Shown here piece by piece: positions 128-35,631 of a stretch of DNA of 35,631 nucleotides. This stretch comes from a virus. Every line of letters starts with the position of its first letter. Within the stretch, counting starts at the first letter, position 1. The notes below the pieces were generated by a model. That model made no database searches and was not told where the DNA came from. It saw nothing but the letters and a program-made list of their open reading frames with translations. Where the stretch lies: IMG/VR virus record IMGVR_UViG_3300021478_000081, positions 1 to 35,631 of that record. One strand, given 5' to 3'. A program made the translations under genes and the position numbers.

Positions 128-463
128 GATTGCCGCTTGTTGGCTAAAGTATCTTGAGCGCCTTCTTTCAAGCTTCCAGGCCGCTGCTGACCAGGTTCCA
201 TCGTCCATGGCGTCGTCTATTACTTGCAACCATCGCATAGAAGTTTGACCTTCTGCTTCTTTTAGGTCCTCGAAAAATTCCATGTATTCTGGTAGTTTTT
301 CTTCTTCCGCTTTTGCTCGCCAATTCAAAAATGTTTGATAATGGATGCGTGCATAATTACAAGCAATCTCATAGGGCGCGCCTTTAGTGATCGCATAAAT
401 CATCTTTTTCTTGTATTCAGGCGTAAACTTCGTGGGCTGCCCTCTTCCTCTTTTCTGTACCAC
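11..463 (-). CDS. Terminase small subunit (TerS)
   Basis: This is the DNA-recognition subunit of the packaging motor, which selects pac-type DNA and hands it to TerL. The N-terminal part (RGRGQPTKFTPEYKKK, then a helix-turn-helix-like stretch with AC.YARIHYQTFLNWRAK) is typical of phage TerS proteins. The C-terminus is a charged Glu/Lys/Arg-rich helix. The frame opens at TTG 475, but GAGG at 470-473 lies 6 nt upstream of GTG 463, so I use GTG (150 aa). It overlaps the end of the holin-like gene. The gene spans the circle junction region, and its last 117 nt are repeated at the right end of the window. In the circular genome the next genes are the Lys-rich small frame at 35457 and the genes leading to TerL. 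The position just after lysis genes matches P22 (13-19-15-3-2). Confidence 0.8.
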   Translation of the reverse strand: MVQKRGRGQPTKFTPEYKKKMIYAITKGAPYEIACNYARIHYQTFLNWRAKAEEEKLPEYMEFFEDLKEAEGQTSMRWLQVIDDAMDDGTWSAAAWKLERRRSRYFSQQAAIIEMNERLEKLEKGEGREKREGSEEGHERNEGQGAYEED

Positions 464-1448: not shown

Positions 1449-1658
1449 ATGAACAAAGAGATAATAGAAAAATTAAGAGCAAAATTTCAAGCAGAAAAGA
1501 TTCTGCAACAAGAGAAATGGAAAAAATTCAATGAGAGCCCAGAAGGAATTAAATTAGACAAAGAAATCAAAGAAGAAATGAGAAGAGCAAAAGAATTGGA
1601 TGAAGGATTCAATAAAAGAAATGACGCTATGAAAGTATATGGATTTGAATTCGACTGA
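1449..1658 (+). CDS. Small charged helical protein, unknown function
   Basis: The protein has 69 aa and is rich in Lys and Glu. It looks like one continuous helix or coiled coil (EKLRAKFQAEKILQQEKWKK, then EIKEEMRRAKELDEGF). GGATG lies a few bases upstream of the ATG. It is the first gene after the 1340-1367 promoter and leads a five-gene plus-strand set (1449-2506). No family was recognised. Confidence 0.6.
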   Translation: MNKEIIEKLRAKFQAEKILQQEKWKKFNESPEGIKLDKEIKEEMRRAKELDEGFNKRNDAMKVYGFEFD

Positions 1659-1702
1659 TTTGCATAAAGCATATTGAAGCGATTAACTAACCGGAGATAA
1701 AG

Positions 1703-3016: not shown

Positions 3017-3172
3017 GCAATTGCCTCTTCTATGTGCTCATCGGGATGTTTATCTAAAACCTCCAAAATGTGCCCTTTTATCCATTCTTCTTCGTCACCG
3101 CCAACCCATTGACACCTTCCTGATCGTGCAAATTAGGTGGTTTTTTCGGGCAATCCATAGCCCTTTGTTCAT
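2962..3172 (-). pseudogene. Frame-disrupted small ORF between initiator and nuclease
   Basis: ATG 3172 overlaps the initiator stop (ATGA), but that frame ends after 25 codons. A second frame, MDCPKKPPNLHDQEG from 3158, ends after 26 codons. In the third frame, protein-like text (QWVGGDEEEWIKGHILEVL, then EEAIACYEEMLGQVGFY) runs without a usable start down to TAG 2962-2964, inside the nuclease gene. Together they read like one ~65-residue gene broken by an indel. A sequencing error, a true frameshift or recoding could all explain it. The A-run at about 3140-3146 is a candidate error or slippage site. Confidence 0.4.
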
Positions 3173-4386
3173 TTAGCCGTGGATTGCAATCTAGACATCA
3201 AGTGCCTATGGTATTCAAATCCGCTCATACCAAGGGATTTTCTCTCTGCTTCTTGCTCAATTTCAATTTTATTTAAGTCAATGCTTATGGGTCTAGCTTG
3301 TGCCAAGAGGGATGCAATGCTTTTTGCACTGTCTATTTCTTTTCTCTTTTCTTCCTCTGCCTTTATCTCACGCTCACGTATCTTTTGCTCATTAGCTGCA
3401 CGTTCTTCTGGAGTTGGGTATTTTTTCTTGTTCATCTCTTGTGTCTTTGTGAACCTTTCCTCCCTGGATAACCAAGACTGAAACCTTTGGGGGCTGACAA
3501 GTTGAGGTTCGAGTTGTGTGGCGTAGTGAGATATGCATTCGTCTAGCATCTCGATATAGGTCTTATCTGTCTTCAGTGATGCGTGCTTTGCTTGAGATTT
3601 TTCGTCACTTAAGCACATACCTCTAAATGCCATAGCTTTACGCTGTTGTTCTGAATCCAGGTAAAGGGTCTTTTCTAAAAAAAACTTATCCCCTTCCGCC
3701 TTGTGTGTGAGAGGTAAAGAATTACTAGTGGTATTTATATTATTTATATGGGGGTTCATTTCACCGGTAGGCGGTTTTTTGATACTGCGGTTGGACACCG
3801 CGGTATCATTTTTGATACTGCGGTTAAAACCCTCTGGTGATGCGGGGTTTACCGCGGTATCATTTTTGATACTGCGGTTGCCCTCCTCAAAGTTATCCAC
3901 AGGCTCATTCGTTGCGTCAAAAATGATACCGCGGTATTTGTCTGCTGTAGCATTAAACTTTGTGCCGTTTAAAACAACAATTCTTGTAGCTCCGACAGTA
4001 CCATCATCATTTCTTTGCTGATGGTACTCAATTAGATTGCATGCACTTAAATATCTCATATGGCGTTTATAGGTAGCCTCGCTTATGTCAAACCTTTTCA
4101 TGATTTCCCATTTGCAAGGTATCCAAGTTTCAGGTTTTGCTTGAAGGTATGCCCATATAAATCCAGCAAAAGGATTCGTGCATTCTTCCAAGACCTTAGT
4201 GCATATATTTGCGTATGGGATTCTTTCTTTTTCAAATTCAGTGAAATTGTATTTGTGGATATTTATGTCGACTACTTTCTTGGTTTTCTTAGATTTTGTT
4301 GATGAATTTTTATTGTTAGTGTTGTCATTGCTGTAAGTCATGTCTATAATTGCCTCTGAAGGTGATGAAAAGTCATAGTAAGTCAT
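3169..4386 (-). CDS. Phage replication initiator (lambda O-like, winged helix)
   Basis: This is the likely origin-binding initiator, 405 aa from ATG 4386. Residues 73-125 (AGFIWAYLQAKPETWIPCKW, then MKRFDISEATYKRHMRYLSA, CNLIEY) form a winged helix-turn-helix like the N-terminal DNA-binding domain of phage O/RepA-type initiators. The middle is low-complexity and encodes a repeated NRSIKNDTAV segment. At the DNA level this is an iteron array with a DnaA box (3780-3937), so the gene carries its own origin as lambda O does. The C-terminus is a charged helix. The open frame extends to 4563, but that extension crosses a 12-bp hairpin and looks non-coding. AAGGC before 4386 and GAGGC before ATG 4341 are duplicate start signals 45 bp apart. 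No helicase or helicase-loader gene is visible, so host proteins must be recruited. Confidence 0.7.
   Translation of the reverse strand: MTYYDFSSPSEAIIDMTYSNDNTNNKNSSTKSKKTKKVVDINIHKYNFTEFEKERIPYANICTKVLEECTNPFAGFIWAYLQAKPETWIPCKWEIMKRFDISEATYKRHMRYLSACNLIEYHQQRNDDGTVGATRIVVLNGTKFNATADKYRGIIFDATNEPVDNFEEGNRSIKNDTAVNPASPEGFNRSIKNDTAVSNRSIKKPPTGEMNPHINNINTTSNSLPLTHKAEGDKFFLEKTLYLDSEQQRKAMAFRGMCLSDEKSQAKHASLKTDKTYIEMLDECISHYATQLEPQLVSPQRFQSWLSREERFTKTQEMNKKKYPTPEERAANEQKIREREIKAEEEKRKEIDSAKSIASLLAQARPISIDLNKIEIEQEAERKSLGMSGFEYHRHLMSRLQSTAK
3700..3760. other. AT-rich stretch beside the iterons (candidate unwinding element)
   Basis: The bases around 3716-3752 (GTATTTATATTATTTATATG and flanks) are strongly AT-rich and lie directly beside the iteron array, as DNA unwinding elements do in iteron origins. 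The assignment comes from composition and position only. Confidence 0.35.
3780..3937. repeat. Iteron array: putative replication origin inside the initiator gene
   Basis: Two identical 29-bp units (3797-3825 and 3851-3879, 54 bp apart) are each an inverted repeat: ACCGCGGTATCA, 4 T, TGATACTGCGGT. A lone half-site TGATACTGCGGTT lies at 3780-3792, and an inverted copy (TCAAAAATGATACCGCGGTA) lies at 3917-3936. This makes about six half-sites of ACCGC(G/A)GTATCA. A DnaA box sits between the second unit and the inverted copy. The repeats fall inside the linker of the winged-helix initiator, matching the lambda ori arrangement. Confidence 0.75.
3893..3901 (+). promoter_or_regulatory. Perfect DnaA box TTATCCACA
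   Basis: TTATCCACA is the consensus high-affinity DnaA box. It lies between iteron units in the initiator gene, so host DnaA probably helps open this origin. Confidence 0.7.
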
Positions 4387-4696: not shown

Positions 4697-4888
4697 CTAT
4701 TTTTTAGGTGCAGTGTGAGTTTCATCCGCCTTAAACCTTCTATTTGTTTTATTTTCTATGACACACTGCATGCGATAAGGAATGAACCCTTTTCTTTTCC
4801 AATTGGAATATGTGGTGTATCCAAGACCAAGTTCTCTCGACATATCTGAATAGGAACCAAAATATTCGTACAGCTCATCTAAATACAT
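4697..4888 (-). CDS. Cro-like helix-turn-helix repressor
   Basis: A 63-aa DNA-binding protein. Residues 1-50 (MYLDELYEYFGSYSDMSREL, GLGYTTYSNWKRKGFIPYRM) follow the Cro/YdaS pattern of a helix, 'FGS...ARELG', recognition helix 'TYSNWKRKG.IP' and dimer helix. The longer frame would start at 4903, but that ATG overlaps the GGAGG that serves ATG 4888, so I take 4888. It faces the plus-strand gene 5142-5573 across an AT-rich region with ATTAAT palindromes, its likely operators. It could act as Cro or as the sole repressor, because no LexA/CI-type protein is visible. Confidence 0.75.
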   Translation of the reverse strand: MYLDELYEYFGSYSDMSRELGLGYTTYSNWKRKGFIPYRMQCVIENKTNRRFKADETHTAPKK

Positions 4889-4924
4889 AATAAAATCCTC
4901 CATTGTTTTTTGGTTTTAAATAAT

Positions 4925-9596: not shown

Positions 9597-9794
9597 CTAA
9601 AGTATTTTACCGCACTTATGGCAAACATTGTTCTTTCCACCGCTGATAAAATATTCATGATCACAATAATTATCAATCATTGACTTTAACTTCTCATAAA
9701 TTCTATAGGCTATATCTGGTTGCTGATGTTCTTCAAGCCCATATCCAATATCTTCATAAAGCCATATTAGCTCTTCTTTCGTGAAATCATTCAT
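9597..9794 (-). CDS. NDFTKEE-family small zinc-binding-like protein, copy 1
   Basis: 65 aa. It begins MNDFTKEELIWLYEDIG, has KLKSMIDNYCDHEYF in the middle and ends in CHKCGKIL. The CDH...CHKC residues could form a zinc ribbon. Three paralogs lie on the plus strand (10831, 12129, 12335), and this is the only inverted copy. Its start overlaps the stop of the small gene at 9791-9895. Function unknown. Confidence 0.65.
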   Translation of the reverse strand: MNDFTKEELIWLYEDIGYGLEEHQQPDIAYRIYEKLKSMIDNYCDHEYFISGGKNNVCHKCGKIL

Positions 9795-10830: not shown

Positions 10831-11037
10831 ATGAATGATTTCACGAAAGAAGAGTTAGAACAGATATATTACCACTTGGAAAATGAGCCTGTTGAATTAA
10901 GTAAAAAAATCCAATCCATGATCGATAACTATTGTGATCATGAGTGTACTCACGAATTCGAAAGACAAACTCTTTTGATAGATTTTTGCGATAAGTGCAA
11001 AAACTTTAAATTTGTATTTGAAGGTCAAAAAGAATGA
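10831..11037 (+). CDS. NDFTKEE-family small zinc-binding-like protein, copy 2
   Basis: 68 aa: MNDFTKEELEQIYYHLENEP, KKIQSMIDNYCDHECTHEF, and a CDKC pair near the end. It shares a 20-base identical start segment (AATGATTTCACGAAAGAAGA, 10834-10853) and the SMIDNYCDH core with copies at 9597, 12129 and 12335. The end overlaps the recombinase start (ATGA). Confidence 0.65.
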   Translation: MNDFTKEELEQIYYHLENEPVELSKKIQSMIDNYCDHECTHEFERQTLLIDFCDKCKNFKFVFEGQKE

Positions 11038-11618
11038 CCCATCAAGTTGTAGGATATATCCGAGTTTCATCAACCAGCCAAAATACAGCAAGGCAATTGC
11101 AAGGAATAAAACTAGACAAGGAGTTTGTCGATATCATGAGTGGGAACACAACAGACAGGAAGGGCCTTAATGATTGCATAGAGTATGTGCGCCAAGGCGA
11201 TCAGCTTGTAGTTGACAGCATTGACAGGTTGGCAAGAAATTTGCGTGACCTTCAAGAATTGGTGGAAAAGATCATATCCAAAGGCGTTTCAGTTAAGTTT
11301 ATCAAGGAAAACCTCACTTTTAATTCAAACAAAGACCCCATGGCAAACCTTACCCTTCAAATGATGGGTGCTTTTGCTGAGTTTGAACGCTCCATGATAA
11401 GGGCTCGTCAACGGGAAGGAATTGAGGCTGCTCGTGCTGCTGGACGTCCCATGGGAAGGCCATGTAAGACAACCCCTGAGCTGGTAGAGAAGGCCAGGAA
11501 ATATATAGAAAAAGGTGAGAGCATCAAGCGTACTGCATGTCTTCTCAATGTCTCTCGCAAGACAATTTATAACGTTCTAGGAGAGCATGCTAAAAAGCCA
11601 AAATGGGAATTTAGTTGA
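11034..11618 (+). CDS. Small serine recombinase (resolvase/invertase)
   Basis: 194 aa. The N-terminal catalytic domain carries VGYIRVSSTSQN with nucleophile Ser near residue 12 and DSIDRLARNLRDL (61-73) with the active-site Arg. A linker helix contains FAEFERSMIRARQREGIEAA. A C-terminal Hin-like HTH follows GRP (SIKRTACLLNVSRKTIYNVL). The size fits Tn3-type resolvases and DNA invertases, not large integrases. It could resolve genome multimers, recombine the direct repeats of neighbouring paralogs, or invert a segment; no clear inversion sites were found. ATGA coupling to the preceding gene. Confidence 0.85.
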   Translation: MTHQVVGYIRVSSTSQNTARQLQGIKLDKEFVDIMSGNTTDRKGLNDCIEYVRQGDQLVVDSIDRLARNLRDLQELVEKIISKGVSVKFIKENLTFNSNKDPMANLTLQMMGAFAEFERSMIRARQREGIEAARAAGRPMGRPCKTTPELVEKARKYIEKGESIKRTACLLNVSRKTIYNVLGEHAKKPKWEFS

Positions 11619-11888: not shown

Positions 11889-12126
11889 ACAAAATATTGA
11901 GCAATATCCGGTACACATTGAAACCAAAGTTGCATTGCTTGAGCAATCGCTATCCTATATGCAGAATTCTTTAGAGGTGATAGCCAAGAATGTCGACAAG
12001 GCTAACGATAAGATAGACAAGGTTGATCATAAGGTTGATTCTAGGTTTTTGTGGTTGCTATCTTTTATTATCGCCGGATTTTCTGGTCTTGGTGCGATCA
12101 TGGCCCATGGATTTCATTGGTTTTGA
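11872..12126 (+). CDS. XhlA-like coiled-coil membrane protein
   Basis: 84 aa from ATG 11872 with GGAGAT upstream. Residues 16-52 form a heptad-rich coil (ETKVALLEQSLSYMQNSLEV, NDKIDKVDHKVDSR), followed by one transmembrane helix (FLWLLSFIIAGFSGLGAIMA). This layout resembles haemolysin XhlA / holin-accessory proteins of phages. It could assist lysis or act as a membrane-bound exclusion factor. It lies far from the lysis pair at 472-1111 and on the other strand. Confidence 0.55.
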   Translation: MKKKHEQNIEQYPVHIETKVALLEQSLSYMQNSLEVIAKNVDKANDKIDKVDHKVDSRFLWLLSFIIAGFSGLGAIMAHGFHWF

Positions 12127-12128
12127 TT

Positions 12129-12338
12129 ATGAATGATTTCACGAAAGAAGAATTAGAAGCAACATTGAATGGATTAGAACAGTGGGTTCATCCAGAATGT
12201 GATTATACAATTTATTGTCATTTAAGAGCCAAAATACAATCCATGCTTGATAACTATTGTGAGCATGAAACAGATCAAGGAGGTTGTGGTGGTGATTTTA
12301 GGTATCTATGCAAAAAGTGCGGAGAGTTTTACAGGTGA
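12129..12338 (+). CDS. NDFTKEE-family small zinc-binding-like protein, copy 3
   Basis: 69 aa from ATG 12129; a longer in-frame start lies inside the preceding gene and is rejected. MNDFTKEELEATLNGLEQW, AKIQSMLDNYCEHETDQGG, then LCKKCGEFYR. The Cys/His pattern fits a small zinc ribbon. The first 20 bases of the shared segment (12132-12151) are identical to the other copies, while the middle has diverged. Confidence 0.65.
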   Translation: MNDFTKEELEATLNGLEQWVHPECDYTIYCHLRAKIQSMLDNYCEHETDQGGCGGDFRYLCKKCGEFYR

Positions 12339-12559
12339 ATGATTTCACGAAAGAAGATCTAGAAATAATAATTTACTTAATTGATGCCTATTGTGAGGGT
12401 GATGATTTAACAAAACTTTCATATAATCCATTTCGCAAGAAAGTTGAATCCATGATTGATAACTATTGTGATCACAGTTGGTTTTTTTATTTAAGAAACG
12501 GATCAAGTGTATTAAGGTGCCATAAGTGTGACAAGGAACTTCCTGATGATAATCAGTGA
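12335..12559 (+). CDS. NDFTKEE-family small zinc-binding-like protein, copy 4 (GTG start)
   Basis: 74 aa beginning VNDFTKEDLEIIIYLIDAYC. The start is GTG 12335, which overlaps the TGA of copy 3 (GTGA). The core KKVESMIDNYCDHSWF and CHKCDKELPDDNQ are present. The tandem arrangement with copy 3 points to local duplication. Confidence 0.65.
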   Translation: MNDFTKEDLEIIIYLIDAYCEGDDLTKLSYNPFRKKVESMIDNYCDHSWFFYLRNGSSVLRCHKCDKELPDDNQ

Positions 12560-13213: not shown

Positions 13214-13411
13214 ATGCGTTTTTATAATGTTGATGGTATTGAGATGGATGTTCAAGACCCTAAATTCTTCATTGACGAAGAAAAGTACAAAATACAAATT
13301 ATCTCCCTTGAGGAGATGCTATCTTATTCTTCTAGCACCGATGTAACCGTAGGCACTGAGAGTACTAACGGAAAAATCTGCGATTACAGAAAGATACACG
13401 GTGGTTGGTGA
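13214..13411 (+). CDS. Small ORF overlapping the 3' end of a fibre gene antisense
   Basis: AGGTG lies 6 nt before ATG 13214 (an upstream ATG 13196 has no ribosome site). MRFYNVDGIEMDVQDPKFFI, KYKIQIISLEEMLSYSS looks protein-like for about 40 residues. The remaining 93 bases are antisense to the conserved C-terminus of the fibre gene ending at 13319. The gene may have lost its original end when the fibre cassette was joined here. It is the last plus-strand gene. Confidence 0.4.
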   Translation: MRFYNVDGIEMDVQDPKFFIDEEKYKIQIISLEEMLSYSSSTDVTVGTESTNGKICDYRKIHGGW

Positions 13412-14023
13412 GGACAAAGATAATCTTTTTTGCCCAATAGATACACCTTGGGCTTGTCCTGCTGCTGTGTTTGCGGCACTATATGAAAATGCACCACCGT
13501 TAGGGGCTGCTGGTGATGTAGCACTTGTAGTATTTATCCATCCTGCAAATGCTGTGGTCAAGGTTCCACCTGCTGGGTTATTCCAAATATTTCCCCATAC
13601 CTGCCAGTCACCCGCTGTTAAAGAAATACTTGTTATGTCAGCGTTGGTGTGATTTGTTAAAGGTACAGCCGATCCCACCAAAACCGTAGACTCAATAATT
13701 TCACCAACATAGCCTGCGGCTGCATTATTATTTGTTGTTGTACCCACGATTCCTTTTGTTGTGGGACTGAATGTTACGCTGCCAAAAGTAACATCACTAG
13801 TGGTTGCAATGGATTGTGGCAGACTAAGGGTAATGGCACCTGTCGGAGATGACGCTATGACTTGATTTGGCGTTCCTGTTATGGTTGTTACGGAAACAGT
13901 ACCTATAAGTGTGCTTAATTGTGTAACAGTCTCTTTGTAGGTAACACCGTTTTGTACTATTGGAAAAACATCAGTTAATGCGGGTACGGCAACCGATGGC
14001 AAAGCACTTATTTTAACGCCCAT
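13319..14023 (-). CDS. Tail fibre protein, short paralog A
   Basis: 234 aa. The N-terminal ~40 residues (KISALPSVAVPALTDVFPIV, then VTYKETVTQLSTLI) match the N-terminus of the fibre at 14814 and should be the virion-attachment segment. A TSDVTFGSVTFSP linker follows. From about residue 90, GIVGTTTNNNAAAGYVGEII, DITSISLTAGDWQVWGNIWN and a final STLSAYGYIGARRIR match the next gene upstream (14065), so the two carry the same beta-rich C-terminal head. It is the last gene of the late operon and a likely receptor-binding tip. Confidence 0.65.
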   Translation of the reverse strand: MGVKISALPSVAVPALTDVFPIVQNGVTYKETVTQLSTLIGTVSVTTITGTPNQVIASSPTGAITLSLPQSIATTSDVTFGSVTFSPTTKGIVGTTTNNNAAAGYVGEIIESTVLVGSAVPLTNHTNADITSISLTAGDWQVWGNIWNNPAGGTLTTAFAGWINTTSATSPAAPNGGAFSYSAANTAAGQAQGVSIGQKRLSLSSPTTVYLSVIADFSVSTLSAYGYIGARRIR

Positions 14024-14064
14024 GACTCTTCCTTTTTTATTTGTGTTTACTTATTTATTGGCCC

Positions 14065-14805
14065 TTATCTCCTGCGTCTAGCACAAATATAACCATATGC
14101 AGACATTGTGCTGACGGCAAACTGTATGGTGGCGCTTAAATATACTGTGGTGTTTCCTGATAGGCTAAGCCTTCTTTGGCCCACAAACAAACCCATTGCT
14201 GCACCTGCTACTGAGGTAAATTGATAAGAGTTAAATGCTCCAGATCCCGGAGCTGTTGGCTGCGTTGCAGAAGACGTATTTATCCATCCTGCTAATATTG
14301 ATGTGGTGGTGCTTCCTGCTGGGTTTGTCCAAATATTTCCCCAAGTATCCCAGTCGCCTGCCGTCAAACTAATAGACGTTATATCTTTGGCTATCGTACT
14401 GCTCATGGACACAGCACTACCAATTAATACTGTGGACTCAATAATTTCTCCCACGTCCCCAGCGGTAGTATTATCATTGGTTGTTGTACCCACAATGCCG
14501 CCTGTTGTAGGGCTAAAAGTCAAACTAGTTGCTGTTGCAGCACCCAGGGTTGGCGTTACGAATGAGGGACTTGTAGTAAGTGAAATTGCACCGCTTCCAT
14601 TAACATTCGCGGCTAATGCCGTAGCAACACCAGTACCAAAACCCGATATGCCTGTGCTAACTGGAAGCCCTGTACAGTTTGTTAAAGTTCCAGATGTCGG
14701 GGTCCCGAGAACTGGAGTTGTAAAGCTAGGGCTTGTAGTCCCTGCAAAACTACCTGTTCCTGATGATCCTGAAAGTCCAACGTTTACTTGGTTATTTGTG
14801 GCCAT
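14065..14805 (-). CDS. Tail fibre protein, short paralog B
   Basis: 246 aa. The N-terminal repeat-like part (TTSPSFTTPVLGTPTSGTLT, NCTGLPVSTGISGFGTGVAT) is of a type common in phage fibres. From about residue 100 (LTFSPTTGGIVGTTTNDNTT) to the end (VSTMSAYGYICARRRR) it is a close paralog of 13319-14023. It has lost or swapped the ALP...TDVFP anchor that paralog A carries. The duplicate heads probably arose by gene duplication and may give alternative receptor specificity. Confidence 0.65.
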   Translation of the reverse strand: MATNNQVNVGLSGSSGTGSFAGTTSPSFTTPVLGTPTSGTLTNCTGLPVSTGISGFGTGVATALAANVNGSGAISLTTSPSFVTPTLGAATATSLTFSPTTGGIVGTTTNDNTTAGDVGEIIESTVLIGSAVSMSSTIAKDITSISLTAGDWDTWGNIWTNPAGSTTTSILAGWINTSSATQPTAPGSGAFNSYQFTSVAGAAMGLFVGQRRLSLSGNTTVYLSATIQFAVSTMSAYGYICARRRR

Positions 14806-35456: not shown

Positions 35457-35555
35457 TTAATAAGGGTCTTTCTTTTTCTTGTCCAGTTTGTGCTCTTTTT
35501 TCTCGTGTTTCTTTTCAATCTTCCTCATACGCTCCTTGGCCTTCATTTCTTTCAT
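35457..35555 (-). CDS. Lys-rich ORF overlapping the TerS 3' end
   Basis: 32 aa (MKEMKAKERMRKIEKKHEKK...). It starts in another frame inside the TerS gene copy at the right end and stops just before ATG 35456. GAAGG lies upstream; an alternative GTG start exists further upstream. The composition follows the purine-rich TerS tail, so coding is uncertain. It becomes continuous only when the genome is circularised. Confidence 0.35.
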   Translation of the reverse strand: MKEMKAKERMRKIEKKHEKKEHKLDKKKKDPY

Positions 35556-35631
35556 GTCCTTCTTCGCTTCCTTCTCTTTTCTCACGTCCTTCTCCCTTTT
35601 CTAGTTTCTCAAGTCGTTCGTTCATTTCTAT
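35505..35631. repeat. Right copy of 127-bp terminal direct repeat
   Basis: Identical to 1-127. The copy also holds the last 117 bases of the TerS gene (from 35515, minus strand), so TerS appears once whole and once as a partial duplicate. Trimming one copy gives a 35,504-bp circle. Confidence 0.9.

Follow-up and report, generated by a model that had tools for sequence, protein, structure and literature searches.

A very likely lambda-O-like replication origin of dyad iterons within the initiator gene of an uncultured P22-like phage

Intragenic origins and related systems

In phage lambda, the O gene contains four iterons to which the O protein binds, and unwinding takes place in the AT-rich tract next to them (PMC7466680). 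In pSK41 (RepA_N), the winged-helix N-terminal domain of the initiator binds four Rep boxes in the middle of rep, and the DNA of the origin codes for a linker (PMC5703833). RepA of PLE, the satellites of Vibrio cholerae, is associated with three ~30-bp semi-palindromic iterons, and its DNA-binding domain and origin are swapped as a module; the PLE origin lies in non-coding DNA, unlike the intragenic array that is described here (PMC8263062). A phage origin within a gene is a known kind of element. The iterons of the present array are new, being absent from the open literature searched, where the core dyad sequence led to one unrelated paper only; the preliminary description of the locus had already called them unfamiliar.

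The phage genome

The whole stretch of DNA analysed, referred to below as the window, is IMGVR_UViG_3300021478_000081 (35,631 nt), a P22-like podovirus as judged by matches of its portal, coat protein and terminase. A 127-bp direct repeat is present at both ends (1-127 and 35505-35631), which suggests that the genome is complete and circularly mapped with a length of 35,504 bp. Among the 20 phage proteins compared with PHROGs, no P or DnaC loader and no helicase was recognised. We also note a serine recombinase gene (11034-11618) surrounded by small paralogous genes (9597-9794, 10831-11037, 12051-12338 and 12308-12559) that start with NDFTKEEL or NDFTKEDL and contain Cys/His residues, and two neighbouring paralogous fibre-like genes (13319-14805) that have their C-terminal halves in common.

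The initiator gene and its product

The array is contained in the following gene, listed with its recognised domain and, for context only, an upstream regulator.

3169-4386, minus strand: replication initiator gene, 405 aa (ORF, phrog_4221 and phrog_270 matches, domain model)
3907-4266, minus strand: winged-helix DNA-binding domain, residues 41-160 (model pLDDT 69.5, pTM 0.64)
4697-4903, minus strand: small Cro-like regulator (phrog_409, E 6e-10)

The protein consists of a winged-helix N-terminal domain, a linker encoded by the repeat array, and a C-terminal part. In a PHROG profile search, residues ~64-188 match phrog_4221 (E 8.9e-6), a replication initiation family, and a weaker match is obtained to phrog_270 (E 0.007), also replication initiation; the profile matches cover the winged-helix region. 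The initiator of a related virus, L003, matches the same two families with E values of 2e-6 and 4.5e-6, respectively. The model of residues 41-160 displays helices followed by a two-strand wing, and Foldseek returned weak matches for it (E 0.06-0.09), among them 4pt7 'initiator', 5kbj Rep-DNA and the DnaD N-terminal domain 2v79. The predicted structure of the whole initiator was poor (pLDDT 45) and too low for use. No relatives of the whole initiator were found among annotated phage and plasmid proteins, and a protein-based scan of bacterial genomes gave no initiator relative, the more distant ones having come from the DNA-dyad scan described below.

Neither the Pfam N-terminal model Phage_rep_O (PF04492; E up to 5) nor RepA_N (PF06970) matches the window initiator, and its likeness to RepA_N initiators consists of weak fold matches only. 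Judged by these profiles, the N-terminal domain is nearer to the phrog_4221/phrog_270 phage initiators than to lambda O, and "lambda-type" is the right term for the layout. The C-terminal part matches no family in a profile search that included PHROGs.

The repeat array, DnaA box and AT-rich flank

Repeat and half-site searches delimit an array that lies directly 3' of the winged-helix-coding region within the gene, with the following elements.

3852-3877: dyad (iteron) A, CCGCGGTATCA-TTTT-TGATACTGCGG
3798-3823: dyad (iteron) B, identical to A, with an A-B centre distance of 54 bp
3780-3790, plus strand: lone half-site TGATACTGCGG, spaced 33 bp from the corresponding half of dyad B
3924-3934, plus strand: half-site TGATACCGCGG in inverted orientation, encoding YRGIIFD (L003 counterpart CGATACCGCGG, one base different)
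3893-3901, plus strand: DnaA box TTATCCACA
3707-3766: AT-rich stretch, candidate unwinding region (68-75% AT in 40-bp windows), containing CCCATATAAATA, which is shared with L003

The preliminary description had counted about six half-sites, a lone one and an inverted copy included, and the array (3780-3934) indeed holds exactly six perfect 11-bp half-sites, TGATACYGCGG, at 3780, 3813, 3867 and 3924 on the plus strand and at 3798 and 3852 on the minus strand. Four of them make up the two identical dyads, and the lone and the inverted half-site complete the set. A single further perfect copy occurs outside the array in 35.6 kb (27698, minus strand). The two 29-bp inverted-repeat units reported earlier (3797-3825 and 3851-3879) are 100% identical to each other, and a 20-nt inverted copy is located at 3917-3936. 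As the same description had it, the repeats encode the peptide NRSIKNDTAV in the linker of a winged-helix initiator; the inverted half-site encodes YRGIIFD instead. When the synonymous codons of the gene were permuted, at most three of the six half-sites arose in 20,000 trials, and 92% of the trials produced none.

The perfect DnaA box and the AT-rich DNA that had been noticed beside the array were likewise recovered. The box is the sole match to TTATNCACA in the window and falls inside the array. Since ~2 matches of this kind would arise by chance over the full length, the box is informative through its location more than through its mere occurrence. The AT-rich tract directly adjoins the iterons, and the repeated initiator-type sites are situated in the linker of the initiator gene, behind the DNA-binding domain. 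The proposed resemblance to lambda O holds for this layout, in which mid-gene dyad iterons around an A-tract are followed by an AT-rich (in lambda, AT/purine-rich) tract (PMC7466680). In contrast to lambda, the window has another iteron sequence and number (two full dyads and two half-sites versus four iterons), a consensus DnaA box within the array, and no significant match to Phage_rep_O; none of the proteins scanned was recognised as a P-like loader.

Nucleotide skew agrees only weakly with the expected change near 3.8 kb. When raw GC skew is accumulated around the circular map, the minimum lies near 0.9 kb, ~3 kb away from the array, and the maximum near 19.9 kb. A third-position skew fit that takes gene strand into account favours an origin/terminus axis at ~3.8/21.6 kb, with other axes nearly equal. 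In the L003 phage, the skew minimum lies at ~14-15 kb and the array at ~16.2 kb. The skew signal is weak; it is mildly supportive of an origin at the array and agrees with one without proving it.

Conservation of the array as DNA

The L003 initiator, of which L002 is a near copy, is 56% identical overall to that of the window, and over residues 91-120 the identity is 100%. In L003 the 54-bp and 33-bp spacings are retained, a DnaA box occupies the same position and the flank is again AT-rich; the spacing of the inverted half-site is altered by 21 bp, which corresponds to about two helical turns. The half-sites themselves read TGATACYGTGG in L003 instead of TGATACYGCGG. This C-to-T change is found in both arms of both dyads as well as in the lone half-site. 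In the right arm it converts GCG to GTG and alanine to valine, and in the left arm CGC becomes CAC and arginine becomes histidine. Since the change is nonsynonymous on both arms, the dyad symmetry has been kept by altering the protein. Synonymous changes are present in none of the 11 I/K/N/D core repeat codons, compared with 39% of identical residues elsewhere (p ~0.004-0.012).

The preliminary description had considered that homologues might preserve the repeats as protein sequence alone, with shuffled codons; the opposite is seen, in that the dyads, their spacing and the DnaA box persist in L003 and it is the peptide that changes. The iterons, as in the lambda O layout, are conserved as DNA and not as protein. 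The covariation is a single comparison with one related lineage (L002/L003), and the DNA-versus-protein test rests on that one comparison because no further close relative was found, nor was any closer relative with the same peptide and recoded DNA. Among 2.9 million viral contigs, the extended dyad occurs in two others only (L002 and L003), in both cases in the same initiator gene.

Directly behind the putative origin the two proteins diverge. Over residues 226-315 the window and L003 initiators are only 0-33% identical, and at 316-345 they are again 73-93% identical. The C-terminal part of the L003 initiator matches phrog_678 and the O-like initiators of Pseudomonas phages PAJU2 and Ab31 (E 1e-12), and from these alignments the C-terminal host-interaction part seems to have been exchanged. 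The linker of PAJU2 O contains GTGCCGAAAACGGCAC dyads, as in the window layout, with different iteron arms, and PAJU2 possesses a P-like loader gene.

Occurrence of the core dyad in other viruses

Viral contigs were scanned, on DNA only and without protein input, for two close copies of TATCAAAANTGATA. This pairing was found in 18 contigs, in 16 of which it lies inside an initiator-type gene, that is, one resembling winged-helix, O-like or DnaD-like initiators. The scanned representatives match PHROG replication-initiation or helicase-loader families, with the exception of L025, which matches a family of unknown function only; four near-duplicates and L030 were classed by similarity to the scanned representatives. 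A scrambled control dyad of the same composition matched 15 contigs, of which one (L039) was initiator-type and most others were intergenic, and another scrambled dyad of the same composition matched no contig. A DNA-dyad scan of genome assemblies revealed more elements in Ruminococcus, Clostridiales and Spirochaetes. With these elements included, and after masking of the repeat peptides, single-linkage clustering yields ~7 groups, the control L039 being counted with L037.

In eight initiators (L010, L014, L027, L029, L030, L033, L036 and L037), the same dyad is translated in two different frames within a single gene, giving IKNDT-like and VSKMI-like peptides. In the Clostridiales contig L015, a 108-residue winged-helix-like ORF is directly followed by an array of TGTATCAAAANTGATACA dyads (~160-320, minus strand) in non-coding DNA, interleaved with three DnaA-type boxes at 44 bp spacing; the arrangement is probably a split version of the same origin. 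The scans, the two-frame initiators and the non-coding array are strong arguments for a function of the dyads at the DNA level. The two-frame cases furnish clean evidence of DNA function overriding protein sequence in a coding region.

In blastn searches of phage and plasmid sequences, the array had weak scattered matches only. Four contigs with a single-dyad pattern (L004-L007) appear to be chance matches, as none of them has an array; the L005 match lies in a tape-measure-like gene encoding IKNDTG, and L004, L006 and L007 have identical flanking bases.

Proposed mode of action and alternative explanations

The array is very likely a phage replication origin with a lambda-O-like layout, lying where the initiator gene of the same phage codes for the linker. 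In the mode of action that we infer, which comprises binding, melting, helicase recruitment, use of DnaA and origin activity of the array, the N-terminal winged-helix domain would bind the TGATACYGCGG half-sites, probably as one dimer per dyad. The bound initiators would assemble a nucleoprotein complex, perhaps with host DnaA at the single DnaA box, and this complex would melt the AT-rich stretch at 3707-3766. Binding through the N-terminal domain and opening of the AT-rich DNA are predicted by analogy with lambda (PMC7466680) and pSK41 (PMC5703833). The C-terminal part of the initiator would then recruit the host helicase machinery, and the host's own helicase loader may serve, because none was recognised among the scanned phage proteins.

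Dyads are typical of repressor sites, and a Cro-like gene lies upstream of the initiator gene, so the array could be conceived as an intragenic operator for autoregulation by the initiator or by the Cro-like protein rather than as an origin. We regard this as unlikely, since the array is placed mid-gene, ~450-600 bp downstream of the start codon, together with an AT-rich tract and a DnaA box; promoter-like sites do not clearly exceed chance expectation (10 found versus 6.6 expected, sd 2.6), and many initiator-type genes carry similar arrays at the same place. It is hardly credible that the repeats have been conserved as an IKNDT-type linker motif of the protein, with the DNA symmetry as a by-product. 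IKNDT is identical in the window and L003, as such a motif would be, but the core codons lack synonymous change, nonsynonymous changes compensate each other on both dyad arms, other initiators read the dyad in two frames, and the L015 array is non-coding, after its short winged-helix-like ORF.

The identity of the two 29-bp units and their common reading frame would also suit an inserted palindromic mobile element, like the Rickettsia palindromic elements, or a recent tandem duplication. The inter-unit sequences differ, however, the spacing is the same in a relative of 56% identity despite a different unit sequence, and the extended dyad is confined to the same gene in the two other contigs that have it, which leaves this origin of the repeats very improbable. 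The preferred reading, an origin within the initiator gene, provides an uncultured P22-like phage with a candidate origin and a predicted binding site.

A possible common origin code

Paired TATCAAAANTGATA dyads are suggested as a simple DNA signature for origins inside the initiator genes of diverse phages, and the recurrence of this A-tract dyad across unrelated initiators is a more interesting lead than a single origin. Initiators from phages and elements that are unrelated, with hosts as distant as Clostridia and Spirochaetes, may share one origin code, in which TATC-AAAA-NTGATA-type dyads stand right after the winged-helix domain, usually in the gene, with host-interaction domains swapped behind them; we put this forward tentatively, at somewhat less than an even chance. 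If such a code is real, the origins of many uncharacterised phages could be found from DNA alone.

As a separate observation, the control contig L039 has GTACTAAAAATAGTAC dyads in the linker of its initiator-type gene (1651-1700, minus strand), alike in layout and different in the arms. The GTACTAAAAATAGTAC dyad pair, 46 bp in all, recurs outside long ORFs in many phages (L038, L040, L041, L043, L045 and similar), where it is perhaps an operator.
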